In this document: in pieces, positions 14,471 through 54,435 of the stretch
Layout: every line of letters starts with the position of its first letter
Numbering within the stretch: the stretch's first letter is position 1
Assembly: GCA_002733765.1 (NCBI GenBank)
Contig: NVWU01000013.1
Coordinates: forward strand, 1-64,000
Length of the DNA: 64,000 nt
Direction of reading: 5' to 3'
Source of the DNA: Colwellia sp.
Lineage (GTDB): Bacteria > Pseudomonadota > Gammaproteobacteria > Enterobacterales > Alteromonadaceae
Notes under the pieces: generated by a model
The model's database searches: none
The model's input: only the letters and a program-made list of their open reading frames with translations
What the model was told of the DNA's origin: nothing
Position numbers and translations under genes: made by a program

Positions 14471-15145
14471 ATGCGTTTATTACTGATAGAAGATGATATT
14501 GTGCTGCAGACAAATTTAAAACAGCATTTATTAGCGGCAAACTATTTGGTTGATGTAGCCAGTGATGGCGAAACTGGATTATTTCAGGGGTTAGAGTACC
14601 CTTATGACGCCGCGGTAATTGATATTGGTTTACCCATTATTGATGGCATTAGTGTTATTAAAACGTTACGAGAAAAAAATAAAATCTTTCCCATTTTGGT
14701 GCTTACAGCACGTAACAGCTGGCAAGATAAAGTCGCTGGTTTAGATGCCGGTGCAGATGATTACCTGACGAAACCTTTCCATGGAGAGGAGTTACTTGCA
14801 CGCTTAAATGCGCTTATTCGTCGTTCGGCAGGACAAGCAAGTCCACTAATAAAAAATGGCCCGTTATCTATTAATACTAAAAGTCTACAGGTTGAAGTGA
14901 ATCACCAAGTAGTAAAACTAAGCGGTTCGGAATATAAATTGCTTGAATATATGATGCTGCACCTTGATGAAGTTACCTCGAAAGCGGTATTAACTGAACA
15001 TATTTATGATCAGGACTTTGATTTAGACTCTAACGTCATTGAAGTGTTTATTCGTCGGCTACGTAAGAAGCTAGATCCTAACAATGACCATGGTTTTATC
15101 GAAACGCTGCGCGGGCACGGTTATAAATTAAAGCGCTACTCTTAA
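14471..15145 (+). CDS. OmpR/PhoP-family response regulator
   Basis: Two-component DNA-binding regulator, 224 residues. The receiver domain has the acidic pair EDD (7-9), phospho-acceptor Asp51 (AVIDIGLP), and LTAR and DYLTKPF for the switch Thr and Lys. The C-terminal winged helix (about 125-224) ends with SNVIEVFIRRLRKKL and the hairpin GHGYKLKR. It is followed after 2 bp by its kinase. Tandem 11-bp-period repeats near this cluster are the likely binding sites. It is closest in type to PhoP/QseB; the stimulus is unknown. Confidence 0.92.
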   Translation: MRLLLIEDDIVLQTNLKQHLLAANYLVDVASDGETGLFQGLEYPYDAAVIDIGLPIIDGISVIKTLREKNKIFPILVLTARNSWQDKVAGLDAGADDYLTKPFHGEELLARLNALIRRSAGQASPLIKNGPLSINTKSLQVEVNHQVVKLSGSEYKLLEYMMLHLDEVTSKAVLTEHIYDQDFDLDSNVIEVFIRRLRKKLDPNNDHGFIETLRGHGYKLKRYS

Positions 15146-46393: not shown

Positions 46394-46583
46394 AAGTCGT
46401 GTTTCACCTTAGCTATTTGCTATCAGTAAATTTAATAAAAAGAATGATAACAATAAGTAGCGTGCTTGCCACTACATTTATGAAATGAATAACTAGGATA
46501 ACAACTATTAATTAAGTAAATAGTTTAATTAATGATATGGTATCCGTATCCTTAGCCAAACCATCTTAATATGTGAGCTTATT

Positions 46584-47705
46584 ATGCCAATTCAATCTTT
46601 TATCCCACCACAACGTACATTAATGGGCCCCGGTCCTTCTGATGTTAGCCCTCGTGTATTATCAGCTTTAGCAAGACCAACAGTGGGCCATTTAGATCCT
46701 ACTTTCATTGGTATGATGGATGAAGTTAAGTCATTACTACAATATGCATTTCAAACTAAAAATACTTATACCATGGCTATTTCTGCCCCGGGCTCTGCCG
46801 GTATGGAAGCATGTTTTGTTAATTTAATTACACCAAATGATACAGTAGTTGTGTGCCGTAATGGCGTTTTTGGTGCGCGTATGATTGAAAATGTACAGCG
46901 TATCGGTGCTAATGTAGTGATTGTAGAAGGCACATGGGGCAGAGCGGTTGACCCACAAGCATTAGAAGATACTTTAAAACAGACACCTCAAGCAACTTTT
47001 GTCGCTTTTGTTCATGCTGAAACATCAACCGGTGCATTGTCTGATGCCAAAACGCTATGCGAAATTGCGCGTAAGCATAACTGTTTAACTATTGTTGATG
47101 CTGTTACGTCACTTGGCGGGGTTGAATTAAGAGTTGATGAGTGGGGTATCGACGCAGTGTATTCTGGCAGTCAAAAGTGTTTATCTTGCGTACCAGGTTT
47201 ATCACCGGTGAGTTTTAGCGAACAAGCAGCAGCGGTAATTAAAAATAGAGAAATACCGGTGCAGAGTTGGTTTTTAGATCAATCACTTGTGATGGGGTAT
47301 TGGGCTGGTGAAGGTAAGCGTAGTTATCACCATACCGCGCCAGTAAATTCTTTATATGCGCTACATGAGTCATTATTAATGTTGCAAAATGAAGGATTAG
47401 AAAATAGCTGGGCTCGCCATAAAGCACAACATGAAAAATTGGCTTCTGGTTTAGAGGCATTAGGAATAAGTTTTGTTGTGCCTGAAAATGAAAGGTTGCC
47501 ACAGTTAAATACGGTTCATATTCCTGAAGGTGTTGATGATGCAAAAGTACGTCAATTCTTATTAAATGAATATAACTTGGAAATAGGTGCGGGCTTAGGG
47601 CAGTTTGCTGGTAATGCTTGGCGTATTGGATTAATGGGCTACGCGGCTCGTAATGAAAATGTACTTTTATGTTTAGCTGCGCTTAAAGAGGCGTTGGCTC
47701 AATAA
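46584..47705 (+). CDS. Class V aminotransferase (alanine/serine-glyoxylate type)
   Basis: PLP enzyme of 373 residues, similar to alanine-glyoxylate and serine-pyruvate aminotransferases. N-terminal LMGPGPSDVSPRVLSAL and HLDPTFIGMMDE; SAPGSAGMEACFVNL; PLP Asp in TIVDAVTSLGGVELRVDEWG; Schiff-base Lys in YSGSQKCLSCVPGLSP (about 198). The substrate pair is inferred from the family. No operon partners; a hairpin or IS end follows. Confidence 0.9.
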   Translation: MPIQSFIPPQRTLMGPGPSDVSPRVLSALARPTVGHLDPTFIGMMDEVKSLLQYAFQTKNTYTMAISAPGSAGMEACFVNLITPNDTVVVCRNGVFGARMIENVQRIGANVVIVEGTWGRAVDPQALEDTLKQTPQATFVAFVHAETSTGALSDAKTLCEIARKHNCLTIVDAVTSLGGVELRVDEWGIDAVYSGSQKCLSCVPGLSPVSFSEQAAAVIKNREIPVQSWFLDQSLVMGYWAGEGKRSYHHTAPVNSLYALHESLLMLQNEGLENSWARHKAQHEKLASGLEALGISFVVPENERLPQLNTVHIPEGVDDAKVRQFLLNEYNLEIGAGLGQFAGNAWRIGLMGYAARNENVLLCLAALKEALAQ

Positions 47706-47739
47706 ACACTTTTACTGTTAAAATATTGATGCTTAAATA

Positions 47740-48081
47740 AGCACTACCAAGAGCTATAATTCTCCATGCTTAACGTGGTTCTTGGAGTGCTAGTACAGTC
47801 CCTTTTTGTGAAACGATAAAGGCAGTAATTCAGAAAATTGGATATGATTATGATATTGATATAGTAGAGCTTGAAATACTAGGGAATCATATGCTAATGG
47901 TTATTATAAGCACACCAAGGCAATCACCAAGTAATCTGATGCAAGTAATAAAAAGTATTATAGCTTGCGAATTTTTCAGGATTTATCCTGATATTAAGAA
48001 AAAGTATTTTTTGGTGGAACGTTATGGACCCAAAGTTATTTTGTTGAAATGATTGGTAATGTAAAAGAAGCAATAAAGTGA
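47740..48081 (+). pseudogene. IS200/IS605-family tnpA remnant
   Basis: A decayed transposase. The frame from about 47808 reads ETIKAVIQKIGYDYDIDIVE, then LEILGNHMLMVI and SPSNLMQVIKSIIACEFF, resembling Y1 transposases. After a frameshift near 47999-48004 it continues FFGGTLWTQSYFVEMIGN to a stop at 48081. The HUH motif has decayed to NHMLM. Upstream, AGCACTACCAAGA and TCTTGGAGTGCT (47740-47791) form a hairpin that could be the element's left end, or a terminator for the aminotransferase. The N-terminus is missing. Confidence 0.7.
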
Positions 48082-48182
48082 AAGTCATAAAATTCAATAT
48101 GTATCAAGTCAACCTCCTTGCTTAATAATTAAAGAGACTAGAAGTAGGTCTTTATTAGTGAAATACGTTATGAGAAAAATAT

Positions 48183-48992
48183 TTAGATATGTAATTTATA
48201 ACCAACGCCTTTAATTGTTATGATCCAATGGGGGTTATTTGGATCAAGTTCGACTTTTTTTCTTAATAAATGCATGTATTGATAAAGGTCTGATTTATTT
48301 GCACGTCCTCTATTCGGCCATAAGTGAGTGATCAATTTTTTGGTAGAACACACACGTTCAGGATCTTCAGCTAAGAACTTAAAAAGCTTAAATTCCGTAG
48401 TAGTAAGCTCTAAGTTTCTTCCTTTTAAATAAACATTTTGACAATTTTTGTCTATTTTAAAAAAACCTAATAATTCGAGATCCACATCTGGATTAAGTAA
48501 CCTAGCGGCACCATTAAGTTGCTTGGATGAAAAAGAGTTAATTGTGTCTAATAATATACGTCGGTCAGTGCCTAATCTACGATTGTAATTTCTTCGTTCA
48601 TCAAAAATATGGGTGAAATCGATAATATATTTATTAATATAATCATCAAGTTTTTCAATAAATGTTTCGTCTTTATAATAATTGAGCCAAGGTAGCAGTA
48701 GGTGAAGTGGTATTCTATTTCTGTTATGTATGGCACAAATAGGAATGGAATACTGGTGGTGAATATTGTTTAACGATTCTAAATGATCTTCAATCAAAGA
48801 GGGCGTTAGTTCACGTAAATCAATAATAATTAATTTAAATTTAGGGTGATTAGTATTACTGTATAGTGGCTTAGAGCGCGATATGCATTTAAGAGTGAAA
48901 TGATTAGCAACACAATATCCCGTTAATAAGCCAATAATAAAGCTATCATTTGAAATTATTAGCATACTATTCTCATGCTGAAAACACGGCAT
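48183..48992 (-). CDS. Winged-helix regulator with degenerate receiver domain
   Basis: 269 residues. The N-terminal part (about 10-125) has receiver-like alternation (MLIISNDSF, LIIIDLRELTP) but lacks the acidic pair and the conserved Lys, so phosphorylation is doubtful. A basic linker with NYNRRLGTDRR follows. The C-terminal OmpR-type winged helix (about 170-269) has LTTTEFKLFKFLAEDPERVC, LITHLWPN and KGVGYKLHI. AAAGGA precedes ATG 48992. It is divergent from the SDN-repeat operon and probably controls it. Confidence 0.8.
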   Translation of the reverse strand: MPCFQHENSMLIISNDSFIIGLLTGYCVANHFTLKCISRSKPLYSNTNHPKFKLIIIDLRELTPSLIEDHLESLNNIHHQYSIPICAIHNRNRIPLHLLLPWLNYYKDETFIEKLDDYINKYIIDFTHIFDERRNYNRRLGTDRRILLDTINSFSSKQLNGAARLLNPDVDLELLGFFKIDKNCQNVYLKGRNLELTTTEFKLFKFLAEDPERVCSTKKLITHLWPNRGRANKSDLYQYMHLLRKKVELDPNNPHWIITIKGVGYKLHI

Positions 48993-49608
48993 ATTTAAGT
49001 CCTTTTTTAATTTTAAATGACAAAAACAACCTGATGATTTATCTTACTAGGGAATAATATTGAGCGCCTGCATAGAAAGTCCACAGGAAACGTTAATTCA
49101 TTGTTAAAAAATCATGTTTATCATAGCGTTTGAAAATCAAGCAATATTTACGCCTAAAATAATTTATATTATTAATACAATCGCTTAATTGATTTATTTT
49201 ATAATACTGATGGCGAAACAGTATTAAGTGTAAAAAATGCTGACAACAAAACTAAGCTTAAATCCAACTTACCTCAATTATATTTTATAGTGAAAAATTC
49301 AGTAATACCTTATCGTTAGTGTTTATAAATTTAATAAAATCATCATTTCTTAATTAAGTAATTTAGATTACTTTTTTAAGTGTTTTTTGATGTACCTTTA
49401 ATGGAATTTTAAGTTAGCCGTGAACTACTATTCACAGTGAATACAAAGCCGCTGCATTCAGATATATGTTAACGCAGATATAGGTTAACGTTTTTTATCT
49501 AGGTATACACGCTTTATATGGATGTTTAAAGTGTCACTATTTTTCTTATAGTGTTAGATGTTTCAATTAGATTAATAGTTACTAAATAAATTTAGTGGAG
49601 TATAAAAT
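48993..49608. promoter_or_regulatory. Regulatory region of the SDN-repeat operon
   Basis: 616 bp without a gene between the divergent regulator and the SDN operon. It contains a perfect palindrome TATTCACAGTGAATA at 49429-49443 and a direct repeat GATATATGTTAACG (49461-49474) / GATATAGGTTAACG (49477-49490), 13/14 identical with a 16-bp period. Both are good candidate operators. GTGGAG precedes ATG 49609. The long leader suggests complex regulation. Confidence 0.6.
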
Positions 49609-51096
49609 ATGAAATTTTTTAACAAAAAAATACTTGCAGTAAGTATTGCTCTAATACTTAGTTCTGCAGCCAGTTTAGCATTGGCAAATGAAGCGGACAA
49701 TGGCTCATCCGCAGCAAATGAAAGCTCAACTGCAACTACTGACAATTCAGATAATAGTAATGATTTAGATGTTGGTGGTATAGCAGACTCAGGCAATAAC
49801 AGCTCTGATAATAGCGATAACAGTGATAACAGTAATGATCTAGCTATTTCAGACAATGGTAATGATATGTCTGACAACACAAACAACTCAGATAATAGTG
49901 ATAGTTCTAATAATTCTGATAACAGTGATAACAGTAATGATTTAGATGTTGCCATTTCAGACAATGGTAATGATATGTCTGACAACACAAACAATTCAGA
50001 TAACAGTGATAACTCTAATAATTCTGATAACAGTGATAACAGTAATGATCTAGCTATTTCAGACAATGGTAATGATATGTCTGACAACACAAACAATTCA
50101 GATAACAGTGATAGTTCTAATAATTCGGATAACAGTGATAACAGTAATGACCTAGCCATTTCAGACAATGGTAATGATATGTCTGACAATACAAATAATT
50201 CAGATAACAGTGATAGTTCTAATAATTCTGATAACAGTGATAACAGTAATGATTTAGACGTTGCCATTTCAGATAACGGTAATAATAACTCCGATAATAC
50301 TAATAATTCTGATAATAGTGATAGCTCTAATAATTCTGACAACAGTGATAACAGTAATGATTTAGATGTTGTGATTTCAGATAATGGTAATGATATGTCC
50401 AATAGCTCCGATAATAGCGATAACTCGGACAACTCTGATAACAGTACTGATGTAGACTTAGCTATTTCAGATAACGGTAATGATATGTCAAATAACTCCG
50501 ACAATAGTGATAACTCGGATAGCTCTGATAATAGCGCTGATTTAGACCTTACTATTTCAGATAGCGGTAATGACTACTCAGACAACAGTGATAATTCTGA
50601 TAATTCAGACAGTTCTGATAATAGTACTGATTTTGACCTAGCTGTTTCAGATAGTGGTAATGACAATTCAGATCATTCTGATAACAGTAATAATTCGGAT
50701 AACTCTGATAGTAGCATGGCTAAGGCAAGTGCCATGGGGTCTGCAGCTGCCAACAATGGTGGAGTAGCGACCGTTGATAACTCAGATAACAGTAACAATA
50801 GTGATAATAGCGATAACAGTGGTGCTTGGGCTGATGGGTGGGGAACATCTTCAGCAAATAATGGCGGCACAGCTACTACAACCTATAGTGTTAATGAATC
50901 TGTATTAACGGGTACTGTAACTGCTAATAGTGTGGCCTACAATTTCAACGGTGGATCTACAATAGCAACTAGTAACAATATGACAGATACTTTTAATGGT
51001 ACTGCTGGCATTAACCAGAATGTGCAAAATATTGGCAATAATGCTTTAACACAACAACAAGTGTCATTTCAAGGGAATGTTAATGTAAACCAATAA
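49609..51096 (+). CDS. Secreted Ser-Asp-Asn repeat protein
   Basis: 495 residues. A signal peptide (about 1-26, ending ASLALAN) is followed by a low-complexity domain (45-370) built of SDN/NSD triplets. Longer units of 34-36 residues alternate DLAIS and DLDVAIS openings with SDNGNDMSDNTNNSDNSD. The C-terminal 110 residues are not repetitive and end GINQNVQNIGNNALTQQQ plus a short tail. This last motif recurs in the next protein. No cysteine or known enzyme domain is seen. The strongly acidic, Asn-rich repeat suggests an extracellular fibre, matrix or Ca-binding protein. Function unknown; likely structural subunit of the locus. Confidence 0.85.
   Translation: MKFFNKKILAVSIALILSSAASLALANEADNGSSAANESSTATTDNSDNSNDLDVGGIADSGNNSSDNSDNSDNSNDLAISDNGNDMSDNTNNSDNSDSSNNSDNSDNSNDLDVAISDNGNDMSDNTNNSDNSDNSNNSDNSDNSNDLAISDNGNDMSDNTNNSDNSDSSNNSDNSDNSNDLAISDNGNDMSDNTNNSDNSDSSNNSDNSDNSNDLDVAISDNGNNNSDNTNNSDNSDSSNNSDNSDNSNDLDVVISDNGNDMSNSSDNSDNSDNSDNSTDVDLAISDNGNDMSNNSDNSDNSDSSDNSADLDLTISDSGNDYSDNSDNSDNSDSSDNSTDFDLAVSDSGNDNSDHSDNSNNSDNSDSSMAKASAMGSAAANNGGVATVDNSDNSNNSDNSDNSGAWADGWGTSSANNGGTATTTYSVNESVLTGTVTANSVAYNFNGGSTIATSNNMTDTFNGTAGINQNVQNIGNNALTQQQVSFQGNVNVNQ
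49741..50715 (+). repeat. SDN-coding repeat region
   Basis: In-frame repeats at two scales: 9-bp SDN-type triplets, and units of about 102-108 bp starting at aspartate-leucine blocks near 49840, 49938, 50047, 50149, 50251 and 50359. Units are more alike at the start and drift toward the 3' end (after about 50400). A shorter SDN block recurs at 50776-50820. Confidence 0.85.
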
Positions 51097-51184
51097 TGGT
51101 GAGCACATCATTTAAGGTTTATATGAAATAACGTTAAAAAGTTGCTGATATTATTGTCAGCAACTTCCTATAAGGATAAGGGCT

Positions 51185-51547
51185 ATGAAAAAGCTATATC
51201 AAAGTATTCGTTTATTAATATTATTTACCTTGTTCATTATAATAAGTAACAAAATTTCTGCCGAAAATGTTGTTGTAGATATTGCTATAATTGATATTGC
51301 GCCTGTAATATTCGAAGATTTAGATCAAGTACGAGGCCTTGGTGGAGTCGTTGATGTTACTAACCATGCGAATTTAGAAGCCGTGCTTACCAATAATAAT
51401 GCTAGCGATAGTGTGACTGGATATAACATCATAGATCAAAGCTCATTTAATGACGCAAGTGGTGTATTTTCAATTATTCAAAATACTGGTAATAACGTCA
51501 TTATTCAAGACTCGACTATTATTACTATTACAATATCTCCTAATTAA
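51185..51547 (+). CDS. Small secreted protein sharing a C-terminal motif with the SDN protein
   Basis: 120 residues with a signal peptide (about 1-26, ending ISAEN). Then come FEDLDQVRGLGGVVDVTN (Gly-Gly at 53-54) and an Asn-rich stretch. The C-terminus SFNDASGVFSIIQNTGNN followed by VIIQ and a beta-rich tail aligns with the SDN protein end (F-N-x3-G-x5-QN-x-GNN-x3-Q). It lies 88 bp after the SDN gene and 11 bp before the peptidase gene, with AAGGATAAGG upstream of the ATG. Perhaps a minor or nucleating subunit. Confidence 0.75.
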   Translation: MKKLYQSIRLLILFTLFIIISNKISAENVVVDIAIIDIAPVIFEDLDQVRGLGGVVDVTNHANLEAVLTNNNASDSVTGYNIIDQSSFNDASGVFSIIQNTGNNVIIQDSTIITITISPN

Positions 51548-51558
51548 AGGTAAACATT

Positions 51559-52251
51559 ATGAGTAAAATATTTACGATATTTTTACCGCTAATACTACTA
51601 ATGCTTCCTGCACATGCTGGCACAGTTACTTTAGGCGGAGGTTTCAGTGGAGGTGATTTTTCAATAAAGGTTTCAAGTATCATAGAGCAGCGTTTCAAAA
51701 CTATCTATAAACAACAATATGACTTTAGTTGTGGCTCTGCCACTTTGGCCAGTTTATTGTCTTTTCATTATGACGATGTAGTAGATGAATTAATGGTTTT
51801 TAAAGATATGTATCGCTATGGAAATCAACAGAAAATACAACAAAAAGGCTTCTCATTATTAGATATGAAACTCTATTTATCACGTCGAGGTTATAGATCT
51901 AATGGCTTTAAAATTGGTTTGAAAGAGCTTGCAAAAGCTGAAATTCCGGCCATAACTATTATTAATAATAAAGGTTATATGCACTTTGTTATTATTAAAG
52001 GCAGTGATGAAAAGGAAGTATTAGTTGGTGATCCTGCCATAGGCATTAAAGTTTATAGCAGAGCTGAATTTGAAAAAATGTGGAACAAACAGATTTTTTT
52101 TGTTATTCAAGACAAAAAGGATATAGCATCTAATCATTACCAAACTCAGACAGAATGGAAGTTACGAGTGAAGGCCCATTTAGGACTCGCCGTTGATCAT
52201 TCTAGTTTAGCATTATTTAATATGCTCCAACCTTCAGCAATTGATTTTTGA
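51559..52251 (+). CDS. Exported C39-family cysteine peptidase (FapD-like)
   Basis: 230 residues with a signal peptide (about 1-20, ending LPAHAG). The papain-like C39 domain has catalytic Cys58 (YDFSCGSATLASLL), His142 (GYMHFVIIKG) and Asp158 (VLVGDPAIG), with GFSLLDMKLYLSRRGY between. All three are intact. C39 peptidases classically cut after Gly-Gly; stand-alone exported ones include FapD of the Pseudomonas Fap amyloid operon. Probable substrates are the neighbouring secreted proteins. Tightly spaced with both neighbours (11 and 21 bp). Confidence 0.85.
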   Translation: MSKIFTIFLPLILLMLPAHAGTVTLGGGFSGGDFSIKVSSIIEQRFKTIYKQQYDFSCGSATLASLLSFHYDDVVDELMVFKDMYRYGNQQKIQQKGFSLLDMKLYLSRRGYRSNGFKIGLKELAKAEIPAITIINNKGYMHFVIIKGSDEKEVLVGDPAIGIKVYSRAEFEKMWNKQIFFVIQDKKDIASNHYQTQTEWKLRVKAHLGLAVDHSSLALFNMLQPSAIDF

Positions 52252-52272
52252 TTTAAATTTTAGGACATTTAC

Positions 52273-52764
52273 ATGAATATAAACGCAGTCATGCTTTTAA
52301 AAAATCTATGCATAATGGTGGTATTTATAATAATTATGGGATCAGGTTTAGTTTTAGCTAGAAACGGAGAAAATATAACTTTTGAACAATCTTTAGCTAT
52401 AGAAAAATGGCTTAAGGTATCGGATACAAGGTTAGCTTATTCACGAGGAGGGTTTGTATTACCTAATGGTGTAATTGTTGATATCAGTTTTGAAAAACGT
52501 ATATTTCGAAATGGTGAAGAAATCTCTAGCTCTTATTTTCAAACACCAAATAACTTGAGCTTAGTTAAAAATGGAAAATTAAATATACCAGGATTATCTA
52601 ATACCTTATTTCAGTCAATTATCCAAAATGATCTCGACAATCAAACACTACAAACTATCAATAATATCAACATTGATATTAAAAATTTAAATAATATCAA
52701 CTTAACCCCAAGTAATAACCAATTTTATAATTTACACTCATTGTCTACAACTATTAACTATTAA
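52273..52764 (+). CDS. Small exported protein of the SDN operon
   Basis: 163 residues. The N-terminal hydrophobic segment (about 12-29) is a signal peptide or anchor. The centre has LAYSRGGFVLPNGVIVDISF (Gly-Gly at 59-60), KRIFRNGEEISSSYFQTPN, then an Asn-rich C-terminus with repeated NNIN/NNIDI. No family I can name. It is 21 bp after the peptidase and the last gene of the operon; perhaps an accessory or chaperone-like factor. Confidence 0.7.
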   Translation: MNINAVMLLKNLCIMVVFIIIMGSGLVLARNGENITFEQSLAIEKWLKVSDTRLAYSRGGFVLPNGVIVDISFEKRIFRNGEEISSSYFQTPNNLSLVKNGKLNIPGLSNTLFQSIIQNDLDNQTLQTINNINIDIKNLNNINLTPSNNQFYNLHSLSTTINY

Positions 52765-52879
52765 CCACAAAGTTAACTCACTTATCGTTATGGTGCTATT
52801 GTCTAGGACATAGATTATGCTTTAGTTGATTTTTTAAGTCTTATGAATGTAATCATGCTCGGAGTTATAGCTGTATATC

Positions 52880-53539
52880 CTATTCTGTTTTATCTTTAAA
52901 ATCACATAAATCCTCAATTATACATGAGCCACATTTAGGTTTACGTGCAGTACAGGTATAACGGCCATGTAAGATAAACCAATGGTGTAAATTGAACATA
53001 AACTCTTTTTTATTTGGTGTGTTTTTTATTATGGCTTGTTCTGTTTGTTCAACTGTTTTACCTTTGGCGTATCCTGTACGGTTGGCAAGGCGCTGGATAT
53101 GAGTATCAACTGCTAAAAAATATCTACCTTCATTATCTTTTAGCCAGCCAAAGGCTGTATTTAACACTACGTTGGCAGTTTTTCTGCCAACGCCAGGTAA
53201 CGCTTCTAATGCTGCTCTGTTTTCGGGTACTTCACCACCATGTAAATCCACTAACATTTGGCATGTTTTAATAGTATTTGCGGCTTTAGTATTAAATAAG
53301 CCGATGGTTTTTATATAAGATTTCAAGCCTTCTAAACCTAAGTCTAATATTGTTTGTGGGGTATTGGCTACAGGGTATAGCTTATCGGTTGCTTTATTAA
53401 CGCTAACATCGGTCGCTTGAGCTGAAAGTAATACGGCAATCAGTAATTCAAATGGTGAGCTAAAGTTTAATTCTGTGGTGGGCTCAGGGTCATTGTCACG
53501 AAGTCTGGTTAATATTTCTAAACGTTTTTCTTTGTTCAT
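52880..53539 (-). CDS. nth: Endonuclease III
   Basis: Bifunctional DNA glycosylase/AP lyase for oxidised pyrimidines. The helix-hairpin-helix LEALPGVGRKTANVVLNTAFG contains the catalytic Lys (about 120), and the catalytic Asp is in VDTHIQRLANR (about 138). The 4Fe-4S cluster motif is near the C-terminus: CTARKPKCGSCIIEDLC. Length 219 (E. coli 211). It follows rsxE, as in E. coli. Confidence 0.97.
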   Translation of the reverse strand: MNKEKRLEILTRLRDNDPEPTTELNFSSPFELLIAVLLSAQATDVSVNKATDKLYPVANTPQTILDLGLEGLKSYIKTIGLFNTKAANTIKTCQMLVDLHGGEVPENRAALEALPGVGRKTANVVLNTAFGWLKDNEGRYFLAVDTHIQRLANRTGYAKGKTVEQTEQAIIKNTPNKKEFMFNLHHWFILHGRYTCTARKPKCGSCIIEDLCDFKDKTE

Positions 53540-53640
53540 TTTTATTTTTCACTATTTTGTTTTCGCCACTAGTCTTTAGCTCTTCGTAACTCGTCTTTTA
53601 GCTTCTTGTAACTCGAAACTAATCTATCACAACTGAGTTG

Positions 53641-54435
53641 CTATGAATCAAAGTTTACTCTTACACGCTCGATGGCTTTGTCTGCTTCTTTAGGCTGGCG
53701 CTGTTTAATATAGGTGTCAATGGTATTTTTAAGAGCAATGATAAAGCCCATAGCAATAAAGGCACCAGGTGGCAAAATAGCCAGTAAAAATTGACTGTCT
53801 AAGTGCATAACTTCAATGCGTAAAACGGTTGCCCAATCACCTAGCAATAAATTTGCGCCGTCAAAAAGTGTTCCTTGCCCTAAAATTTCGCGTATGGCAC
53901 CGAGTACTATAAGTACTAAAGCGAAACCTAACCCCATCATCAAGCCATCAAAACTTGCTTGTTTTATTGGGTTCTTAGAAGCATAGGCTTCAGCACGACC
54001 GATAATCGCGCAGTTGGTAACGATTAAAGGTAAGAATATTCCTAGTGATTGGTAGATGCCATAAGTATAAGCATTCATTAATAATTGCACACAAGTCACG
54101 AAAGCGGCGATGATCAAAACAAAAATTGGGATACGAATTTCTTTAGGGACCCAGTGACGAATAGCCGATACTGTGGCATTTGAACACACAAGTACCAATA
54201 GGGTAGCAAGCCCTAAGCCTAAAGCATTAGTCACAGTAGCTGTTACCGCTAATAACGGGCAAAGTCCTAATAATTGTACTAATCCAGGATTGTTTTTCCA
54301 TAATCCTTGTTTCGCCAGTTCTTTATATTCTTCTCTACTGGCTTGTTTAATTAAGGCAATAGCGGCTTCATCATGCGCTACTGTGTCAGTTAACTCAGGA
54401 TTATCATTGATTGTTGGCTCTGTGTTAGTGCTCAT
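53641..54435 (-). CDS. rsxE: Rsx/Rnf electron-transport subunit RsxE
   Basis: Inner-membrane subunit of the Rnf/Rsx complex. About six membrane helices; family segments [20 protein letters not shown] and [20 protein letters not shown]. The hydrophilic N-terminus is longer than in E. coli (265 versus 231 residues). ATG 54435 is chosen over ATG 54447; it overlaps the end of rsxG by 11 bp, typical of this operon. Confidence 0.95.

Follow-up and report, generated by a model that had tools for sequence, protein, structure and literature searches.

Does a compact group of genes for a secreted repeat protein, a C39-type peptidase and two small exported proteins, with no outer-membrane pore gene beside it, belong to a known fibre secretion system or to a system of another kind? 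We addressed this question for a locus of Colwellia sp. (GenBank assembly GCA_002733765.1, contig NVWU01000013.1) at positions 48,183 to 52,764 of a 64,000-nucleotide stretch that covers positions 1 to 64,000 of the contig (hereafter, the window). A sequence-only reading had likened the locus to the Pseudomonas Fap amyloid operon and had proposed a distinct functional-amyloid or matrix system that borrows an export pore encoded elsewhere. Our sequence comparisons indicate a genuine and conserved secretion system that is related to Fap, has an architecture of its own and forms a clade apart from canonical Fap. Together with a pore gene on another contig of the same genome (C11), the locus is best read as a divergent lineage of Fap-type functional-amyloid secretion systems, to which we assign a probability of roughly 0.7. 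This reading is built on the homology of peptidase and pore, the gene set and order, the profile-level repeats, the leader motif and the displacement of the gene block from the pore. The five open reading frames (ORFs), four genes and a divergent winged-helix regulator, were all found where the earlier reading had placed them and read as it had described:

49609-51096, plus strand: Ser-Asp-Asn (SDN) repeat protein, 495 amino acids (aa), with a signal peptide, a long acidic S/D/N linker and a conserved C-terminal domain
51185-51547, plus strand: small exported subunit, 120 aa, with a signal peptide, a leader-like motif and one Fap-type repeat
51559-52251, plus strand: exported C39 peptidase, FapD-like, 230 aa (PF03412, E 9e-20)
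52273-52764, plus strand: small exported protein, 163 aa, with a FapE-like N-terminal region (signal peptide, double-glycine leader motif) and a repeat-like C-terminus
48183-48992, minus strand: OmpR/PhoB-type winged-helix regulator, 269 aa (PF00486, E 5e-19, residues 191-267)

The signal-peptide-like stretches at the N-termini of all four plus-strand products were read by eye. In the peptidase, Cys58, His142 and Asp158, which the sequence-only reading had correctly named as the C39 triad, were invariant in 18 aligned peptidases, together with the oxyanion residue Gln52. Its best solved relative was 6mpz, a double-glycine protease domain (E 2e-12). Among the NCBIfam models, the peptidase matched FapD with 139 bits (E 1e-40) and FilB with 125 bits, both below the curated cut-offs (FapD 330 bits, FapF 700, FilB 475, FilC 630). 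Canonical-type FapD proteins from outside Pseudomonas, at loci L078 and L083, scored 281 and 260 bits, also under 330, and a Pseudomonas-like FapD scored 442. Canonical-like FapF proteins outside Pseudomonas, at 307-456 bits, also stayed under 700. Thus, annotation pipelines may leave canonical-type fap loci outside Pseudomonas unnamed.

The claim that no FapF-like pore is encoded held for the immediate neighbours of the operon in the window and failed for the genome: the search for a FapF-like barrel elsewhere, which the earlier reading had proposed, found a FapF homologue in the interior of the 50-kb contig C11 (G000:C11:37281-38540). It is 82% identical to the pore of Colwellia demingiae and matched the NCBI FapF model with E 3e-44 (151 bits, under the cut-off). 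The corresponding pores of C. demingiae, Paraglaciecola mesophila and Methylobacter luteus are 429-445 aa long, with a charged, helix-like N-terminal stretch and a barrel-like remainder. The same model matched these with E 2e-46 to 3e-45 (155-159 bits), over residues 19-429 in C. demingiae (E 2e-46). In a sequence comparison, an eight-row pore profile matched the solved FapF entries 5o65, 5o67 and 5o68 with E 2e-41 to 4e-40 over positions 132/133-429.

We then considered where the pore gene lies in relatives. Among 39 genomes of the genus Colwellia (the genus sample), the pore was present in 8, the same 8 that gave strong matches to the C39 peptidase (E below 1e-127); in 7 of these, it lies on the peptidase's contig, about 0.6-1.2 kb away. 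Three more genomes held weak, partial peptidase matches inside open frames of 739, 713 and 411 aa. With gene names read from translations, the order in C. demingiae is gltX, a helicase gene, the five-gene block (regulator, SDN, 120-aa, C39, 163-aa), the pore gene and a glutamate-synthase-like gene. On C11 it is gltX, helicase, pore and glutamate-synthase-like gene, helicase and pore being 272 bases apart, and BLAST showed C11 and C. demingiae to be collinear on both sides. In the window, the regulator-operon block sits between an aminotransferase gene and nth. Of seven nth regions taken from other genomes of the genus, aminotransferase and nth are neighbours in five (0.55-1.5 kb apart), no aminotransferase match was found in two, and no region of the seven gave a match to the block. 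The simplest reading is that the regulator-operon block moved and left the pore behind. Because the block sits elsewhere in this genome and the pore lies beside the operon in seven relatives, the supposedly borrowed pore is the system's own displaced FapF homologue rather than that of another system. An earlier survey reported fapF apart from the operon in 4 of 16 genera (PMC3792158). An IS200-like transposase remnant lies just outside the block (window 47822-48049, plus strand; Y1_Tnp, E 7e-9), and it may be connected with the move.

The named relatives were C. demingiae, C. psychrerythraea (two records), C. ponticola, two Colwellia metagenome-assembled genomes, P. mesophila and M. luteus. 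C. demingiae, P. mesophila and M. luteus carry the regulator, an SDN or SDN-like gene, the 120-aa-type gene, the peptidase, the 163-aa-type gene and then the pore, and the order 120-aa-type, C39, 163-aa-type, pore recurs across loci. The co-occurrence proposed for profile search was therefore observed, both in the shared distribution of peptidase and pore and in the recurring gene order. Gene set and order are conserved in relatives rather than restricted to this genome, and no homologues with an unrelated established function were encountered. Among the open-licence papers listed in capped literature searches, judged by titles, abstract openings and passages, we found no description of this operon type or of its leader, which is not proof of absence.

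To place the system among its relatives, we used 369 gammaproteobacterial genomes and a phylum sample of 398 genomes. The NCBI FapF model matched 69 of the 369, and the higher scores formed two groups separated by a gap: 16 canonical-like genomes at 307-456 bits and 17 genomes, this one included, at 125-171 bits. All other matches reached 111 bits or less. In the low-scoring group, C39 lies beside the pore in 14 genomes; in two, the pore sits at the end of a contig whose available part lacks C39; and this genome is split. Loci for comparison were taken from 14 of the 16 high-scoring genomes (without G196 and G401) and from 17 of the 17 low-scoring ones. A tree of 42 peptidase rows gathered the 23 of this type in one clade (support 95/90) and placed the 14 canonical ones in a second (99/99). 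Five rows were outlying, L076 being the only FilB-like one among them, and midpoint rooting put these five on this clade's side. Because of these outlying rows, a sister relationship to Fap is not established. In the pore tree, 23 rows of this type formed one clade (99/99), the canonical rows grouped weakly (29/0), two further rows with badly cut domains (L061 and L064, 17% and 13% of columns) fell apart from them, and L093 was omitted by the program.

A profile of the 163-aa family matched 14 of the 369 genomes, all among the 17, and 16 of the 398 in the phylum sample. Three of these 16 were already known, and another, G520, belongs to a genus, inferred to be Pseudomonas, in which 10 of 13 genomes have a FapF that passes the NCBI cut-off. 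The other 12 all have matches to the peptidase, the 120-aa relative and the pore close by; at one of them, L144, the genes for the pore, the peptidase and the small proteins look shortened, and a 163-aa ORF was not found. Genome G050 carries both a canonical-like fap locus and a new-type locus (L065 and L084), which suggests separate roles for the two types. At L142 (5424-9870), the 120-aa, C39 and 163-aa set is tandemly duplicated, with identical E-values for both copies.

The subunits show a second relation to Fap. The SDN tract (residues 41-380) consists of 27% N, 26% S and 24% D, with 82 acidic residues against 1 basic residue, and its DNA is an array with a unit of about 102-108 nucleotides (5.6-5.7 copies, 86-88% matching), so that composition and DNA array confirm the SDN tract. 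The SDN protein had no match in Pfam or, up to E 10, in NCBIfam. A chance low-complexity ORF was ruled out by the conserved C-terminus and synteny. In a seven-row alignment, the signal region and the C-terminal 70 residues or so were kept, and the SDN tract varied in length. The corresponding subunit at L060 and L069 has four repeats and no SDN tract; because some relatives have repeats without it, the tract is to be seen as a linker of variable length and composition. The SDN protein itself is the probable major fibre subunit, and its C-terminus holds the following element:

50980-51093, plus strand: single Fap-type repeat at the SDN protein C-terminus (MTDTFNGTAGINQNVQNIGNNALTQQQVSFQGNVNVNQ), detected by profile-profile comparison only

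This assignment was made with a canonical repeat model of 34 positions, built from 77 repeats in 27 proteins of canonical loci (three repeats in 22 of the 27). On its own, the model finds relatives at L069 (E 3e-6 and 0.002) and at L073 (E 0.003). In profile-profile comparison, the SDN-type C-terminal repeat aligned in register with the canonical FapB/FapC repeats at a probability of 71% (30 column shuffles gave at most 2.5%) and the 120-aa repeat, also in register, at 81% (30 column shuffles, at most 3.6%), and the two repeat profiles matched each other at 96%. Comparison with the 120-aa family shows that the 163-aa protein has a related C-terminus as well. The earlier statement that the repeat is of a different type thus stands for the SDN tract, a variable linker, and falls for the SDN C-terminus and the 120-aa protein, which each hold one Fap-type repeat, as well as for the related 163-aa C-terminus. 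The three repeats expected of FapB/FapC were not found, there being one in the SDN protein and one in the 120-aa protein. In a 21-row alignment of the 120-aa family, L46, G93, I98, Q99, N100, G102 and Q108 are invariant. An iterative 120-aa profile drifted to FapB, FapC and the 163-aa family, and its counts were not used as evidence. Neither the 120-aa nor the 163-aa protein scored above any Pfam or NCBIfam cut-off, and NCBIfam gave no hit to the 120-aa protein up to E 10.

What could the peptidase cut? Two motifs downstream of signal-peptide regions are candidates:

52417-52452, plus strand: proposed C39 leader of the 163-aa protein, VSDTRLAYSRGG followed by F, cut after residue 60
51305-51340, plus strand: leader-like motif of the 120-aa protein (VIFEDLDQVRGL)

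The C39 consensus has been given as Leu(-12)-x3-Glu(-8)-Leu(-7) before Gly-Gly, with -4, -7 and -12 in a hydrophobic groove (PMC6363468). R58-G59-G60/F61, with L54 and V49, resembles such a leader and would be cut between G60 and F61. In a 20-row alignment of the 163-aa family, R58, G60, Q118 and N119 are the only invariant columns, and L54, G59 and F61 are nearly so. The motif L/M-x3-R-G/A-G follows the signal-peptide region in 34 of 34 loci (23 + 11). In the 23, [LM]x3R[GA]G[FILV] was present throughout, with a hydrophobic -12 in 22, a fitting -7 in 23 and G at -2 in 22 (A in 1); the counts at -7, -3 and -1 follow from the anchor pattern, and the real finding is the motif in all 23 profile-selected members. 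The 11 further phylum-sample loci with a 163-aa ORF all have L/M-x3-RGG-F. The pattern [LIVM]x4[LM]x3R[GA]G occurred in 22 of 23 family members, compared with 3 of 920 control ORFs from these loci. In the 120-aa family, the motif is L-x3-[RS]-[GA] in the 21 aligned rows; RGG stands at this place in 8 of the 11 phylum-sample loci whose gene set is intact, and in 2 of the 22 loci considered earlier, and Colwellia has RGL there. The pattern landed on the signal peptide in L060 and L071. At L092, a 94-aa protein carries another double-glycine-type leader (LTEAQMDQVSAG), and its ORF starts 384 bases before an outlying C39 gene; the pairing of C39 and leader may therefore extend beyond Fap-like systems. 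Bacteriocin export was ruled out by the lack of an ABC transporter among the five genes and by the signal peptides on peptidase and substrates.

The same region connects the 163-aa family with FapE. Profile comparison over the N-terminal 67 columns gave 93% (20 shuffles, at most 2%), and 86% with signal peptides removed. Canonical FapE carries L/M-x3-RG(R/K)-(Y/F) at the matching place in 14 of 14 loci, a count that is circular at those residues, as the ORFs were picked by a pattern requiring [LM]x3RG[RK][YF]; the same 14 were also listed with a looser pattern. In the Pseudomonas-like genus, where ORFs were found by profile, the motif was present in 10 of 10 loci. Three ORFs were checked against the NCBI FapE model: L124 and L128 of this genus passed its cut-off and L080 matched below it. 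When plasmids were searched for FapE, a single Acidithiobacillus record came up. The active cysteine of FapD is required for FapC secretion, and its target "remains unclear" (PMC5557850); a 2025 review states that FapD is "thought" to process FapE and FapF (PMC12822426). Passages of PMC5557850 describe the Fap proteins as lacking canonical C39 sequences, and report that FapE alone gave no mass-spectrometry peptides from its first 70 residues or so.

From these features we infer how regulation, export, cleavage, fibre formation and the roles of single subunits might be connected. The regulator would switch on the operon, and Sec would export all four products. The C39 peptidase, acting in the periplasm, would remove a second, Gly-Gly-ending leader from the FapE-like 163-aa protein, and it probably would act on the 120-aa protein too. 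Loss of this leader would clear the way for export by the trimeric, FapF-like barrel. The Fap-type repeats of the three subunits would then stack into a fibre outside the cell, with the SDN protein as bulk subunit, the 120-aa protein in a nucleator-like role and the 163-aa protein as a kind of anchor or initiator, and the acidic SDN tract may serve as a hydrated tether. A broader proposal, to which we give even odds, is that these loci represent a widespread, unrecognised second class of Fap with tandem Sec and double-glycine leaders, in which a periplasmic cut by a stand-alone C39 peptidase releases a FapE-like initiator and opens the pore; the canonical FapE site L/M-x3-R-G-R/K, cut before Y/F, would then be the missing substrate of FapD.

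Several observations weigh against the Fap-type reading and its cleavage step. The peptidase and pore scores lie far under the NCBI cut-offs (139 of 330 bits for FapD, 151-159 of 700 for FapF), and NCBI models exist for FapB, FapC and FapE, none of which matches any window protein. The FapE model NF058559 matches neither the 163-aa protein nor its 20-row family, no bacteriocin-leader family of NCBIfam was found among 20 relatives of this protein, and the canonical repeat model alone misses the Colwellia SDN and 120-aa subunits. The window leader has Ser at -4 and Arg at -8, where the family shows a hydrophobic residue in 15 of 23 and Glu in 9 of 23, respectively. The Colwellia 120-aa protein has L at -1, where C39 sites want small residues, and FapE has R/K there, a basic residue being unusual for C39. 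The predicted FapE cut falls at residue 39-55 in 10 ORFs, compared with about 70 residues without peptides. A rival reading is that RGG is a structural or pore-targeting element, and that the peptidase cuts elsewhere, for example in the pore linker. Cleavage of FapF by FapD at GG/GA near the barrel start has been discussed (PMC5557850), position -1 is variable in the 120-aa family and occupied by R/K in FapE, and -8 and -4 fit the C39 consensus only in part. However, the spacing of hydrophobic -12 (22/23) and -7 (23/23) to Gly-Gly fits this consensus, and the motif stands behind the signal-peptide region in the proteins whose genes flank the peptidase gene; we regard an uncut RGG as somewhat unlikely.

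The amyloid itself may also be questioned. The SDN protein could be a soluble or gel-like polymer that is displayed or released via the FapF-like pore, its repeats only targeting the pore, and could form an adhesive, hydrating or cold-protective matrix, possibly calcium-binding. The strong acidity of the tract disfavours stacking, and each Colwellia subunit has one Fap-type repeat vs the almost constant three of canonical FapB/FapC (PMC12822426). However, L060 and L069 of the same clade have four repeats in the corresponding subunit, and the variable part is the linkers, not the repeats; we consider a system without amyloid improbable. Membership in the Acinetobacter-type Fil "putative pilus" system was rejected on scores and tree position, and we hold it to be very improbable. 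The FilB (125 bits) and FilC (65-68 bits) models also match, both under their cut-offs, and midpoint rooting puts outlying peptidase rows, including the FilB-like L076, on this clade's side rather than that of canonical Fap. However, FapD and FapF outscore FilB and FilC; L076 scores 237 bits with FilB vs 117-125 for three peptidases of this clade; and L076 and the other four outlying loci stand outside the 23-row clade, with no 163-aa or 120-aa relative seen. The reading as a divergent Fap-type lineage is retained.

For the regulation that this reading presumes, the region upstream of the SDN gene offers a candidate operator:

49375-49608, no strand: conserved non-coding block 5' of the SDN gene, candidate operator, near-identical in four aligned Colwellia loci
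49430-49442: inverted repeat ATTCAC-A-GTGAAT in this block
49459-49474 and 49475-49490: tandem 16-base-pair copies CAGATATATGTTAACG and CAGATATAGGTTAACG in this block

These repeats may be the operator of the divergent regulator. The N-terminal part of the regulator (before residue 190 or so) showed no receiver-domain match and no recognised domain. The regulator is also present at L013, L016, L017, L018 and L019; L012, L014 and L015 start too near the operon for it to be visible. Rfam gave no match within 46500-53700. No 12- or 14-base word (lengths tried above 11) is common to the sequences that precede the SDN gene and the pore gene in this genome, so that shared regulation of the operon and its displaced pore is unsupported. 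A second winged-helix regulator ORF (window 14471-15145, plus strand) matches the profile of the locus regulator with E 3e-37.

The main value of these results is a testable proposal for the cleavage site of a FapD-type protease, which is essential for amyloid secretion in Pseudomonas. Because the FapE relative has a plain Gly-Gly site, the idea can be tested in both systems by substituting single residues. The clade is about as frequent as canonical-like Fap in the gammaproteobacterial sample (17 vs 16 of 369, this genome included). Fap has been described as an evolutionarily "fixed" system with three repeats (2025 review, PMC12822426); in contrast, the number of repeats ranges from one to four in this clade, and the linkers are very different. 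To judge from our own repeat model, searches that rely on Fap repeats would overlook most of the clade.

Among known systems, curli (CsgA/CsgG) shares Q/N-rich amyloid-type repeats and an outer-membrane pore, but its pore and helper proteins are of other families, and curli and Fap are not related (PMC6173800). The peptidase-containing ABC transporters (PCAT; LahT, ComA) have a homologous peptidase and leaders with hydrophobic -12 and -7 and Gly-Gly; here, in contrast, the peptidase stands alone with a signal peptide. Because the substrates have signal peptides too, the putative double-glycine leader would come second and serve in the periplasm. Fil (FilB, FilC) likewise combines a C39 peptidase with a barrel partner, but its models score lower than FapD/FapF, and its sole representative here, L076, lies outside the clade without 120-aa or 163-aa relatives. 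The likeness is closest to Fap (Pseudomonas fapABCDEF): peptidase and barrel pore are homologous, Fap-type repeats are seen by profile comparison, the protein after the peptidase has the L/M-x3-R-G motif as in FapE, and relatives keep the order subunits, D, E, F. It differs in its distant scores, the lack of matches to the FapB, FapC and FapE models, the single repeat per Colwellia subunit instead of three, the SDN linker, the OmpR-type regulator, a 120-aa protein with a leader-like motif between main subunit and peptidase, and GG in the leader where FapE has GR/GK. The absence of fapA is common in Fap (PMC3792158), fapD and fapF homologues are co-located in five additional phyla (PMC6173800), and over 90% of 1602 Fap clusters are canonical, with three repeats almost invariable in FapB/FapC (PMC12822426). 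The likeness to Pseudomonas Fap that the sequence-only reading had recognised is thus borne out in the form of a Fap-related secretion and fibre-type locus, distinct from the canonical fap operon and with its pore elsewhere in this genome.

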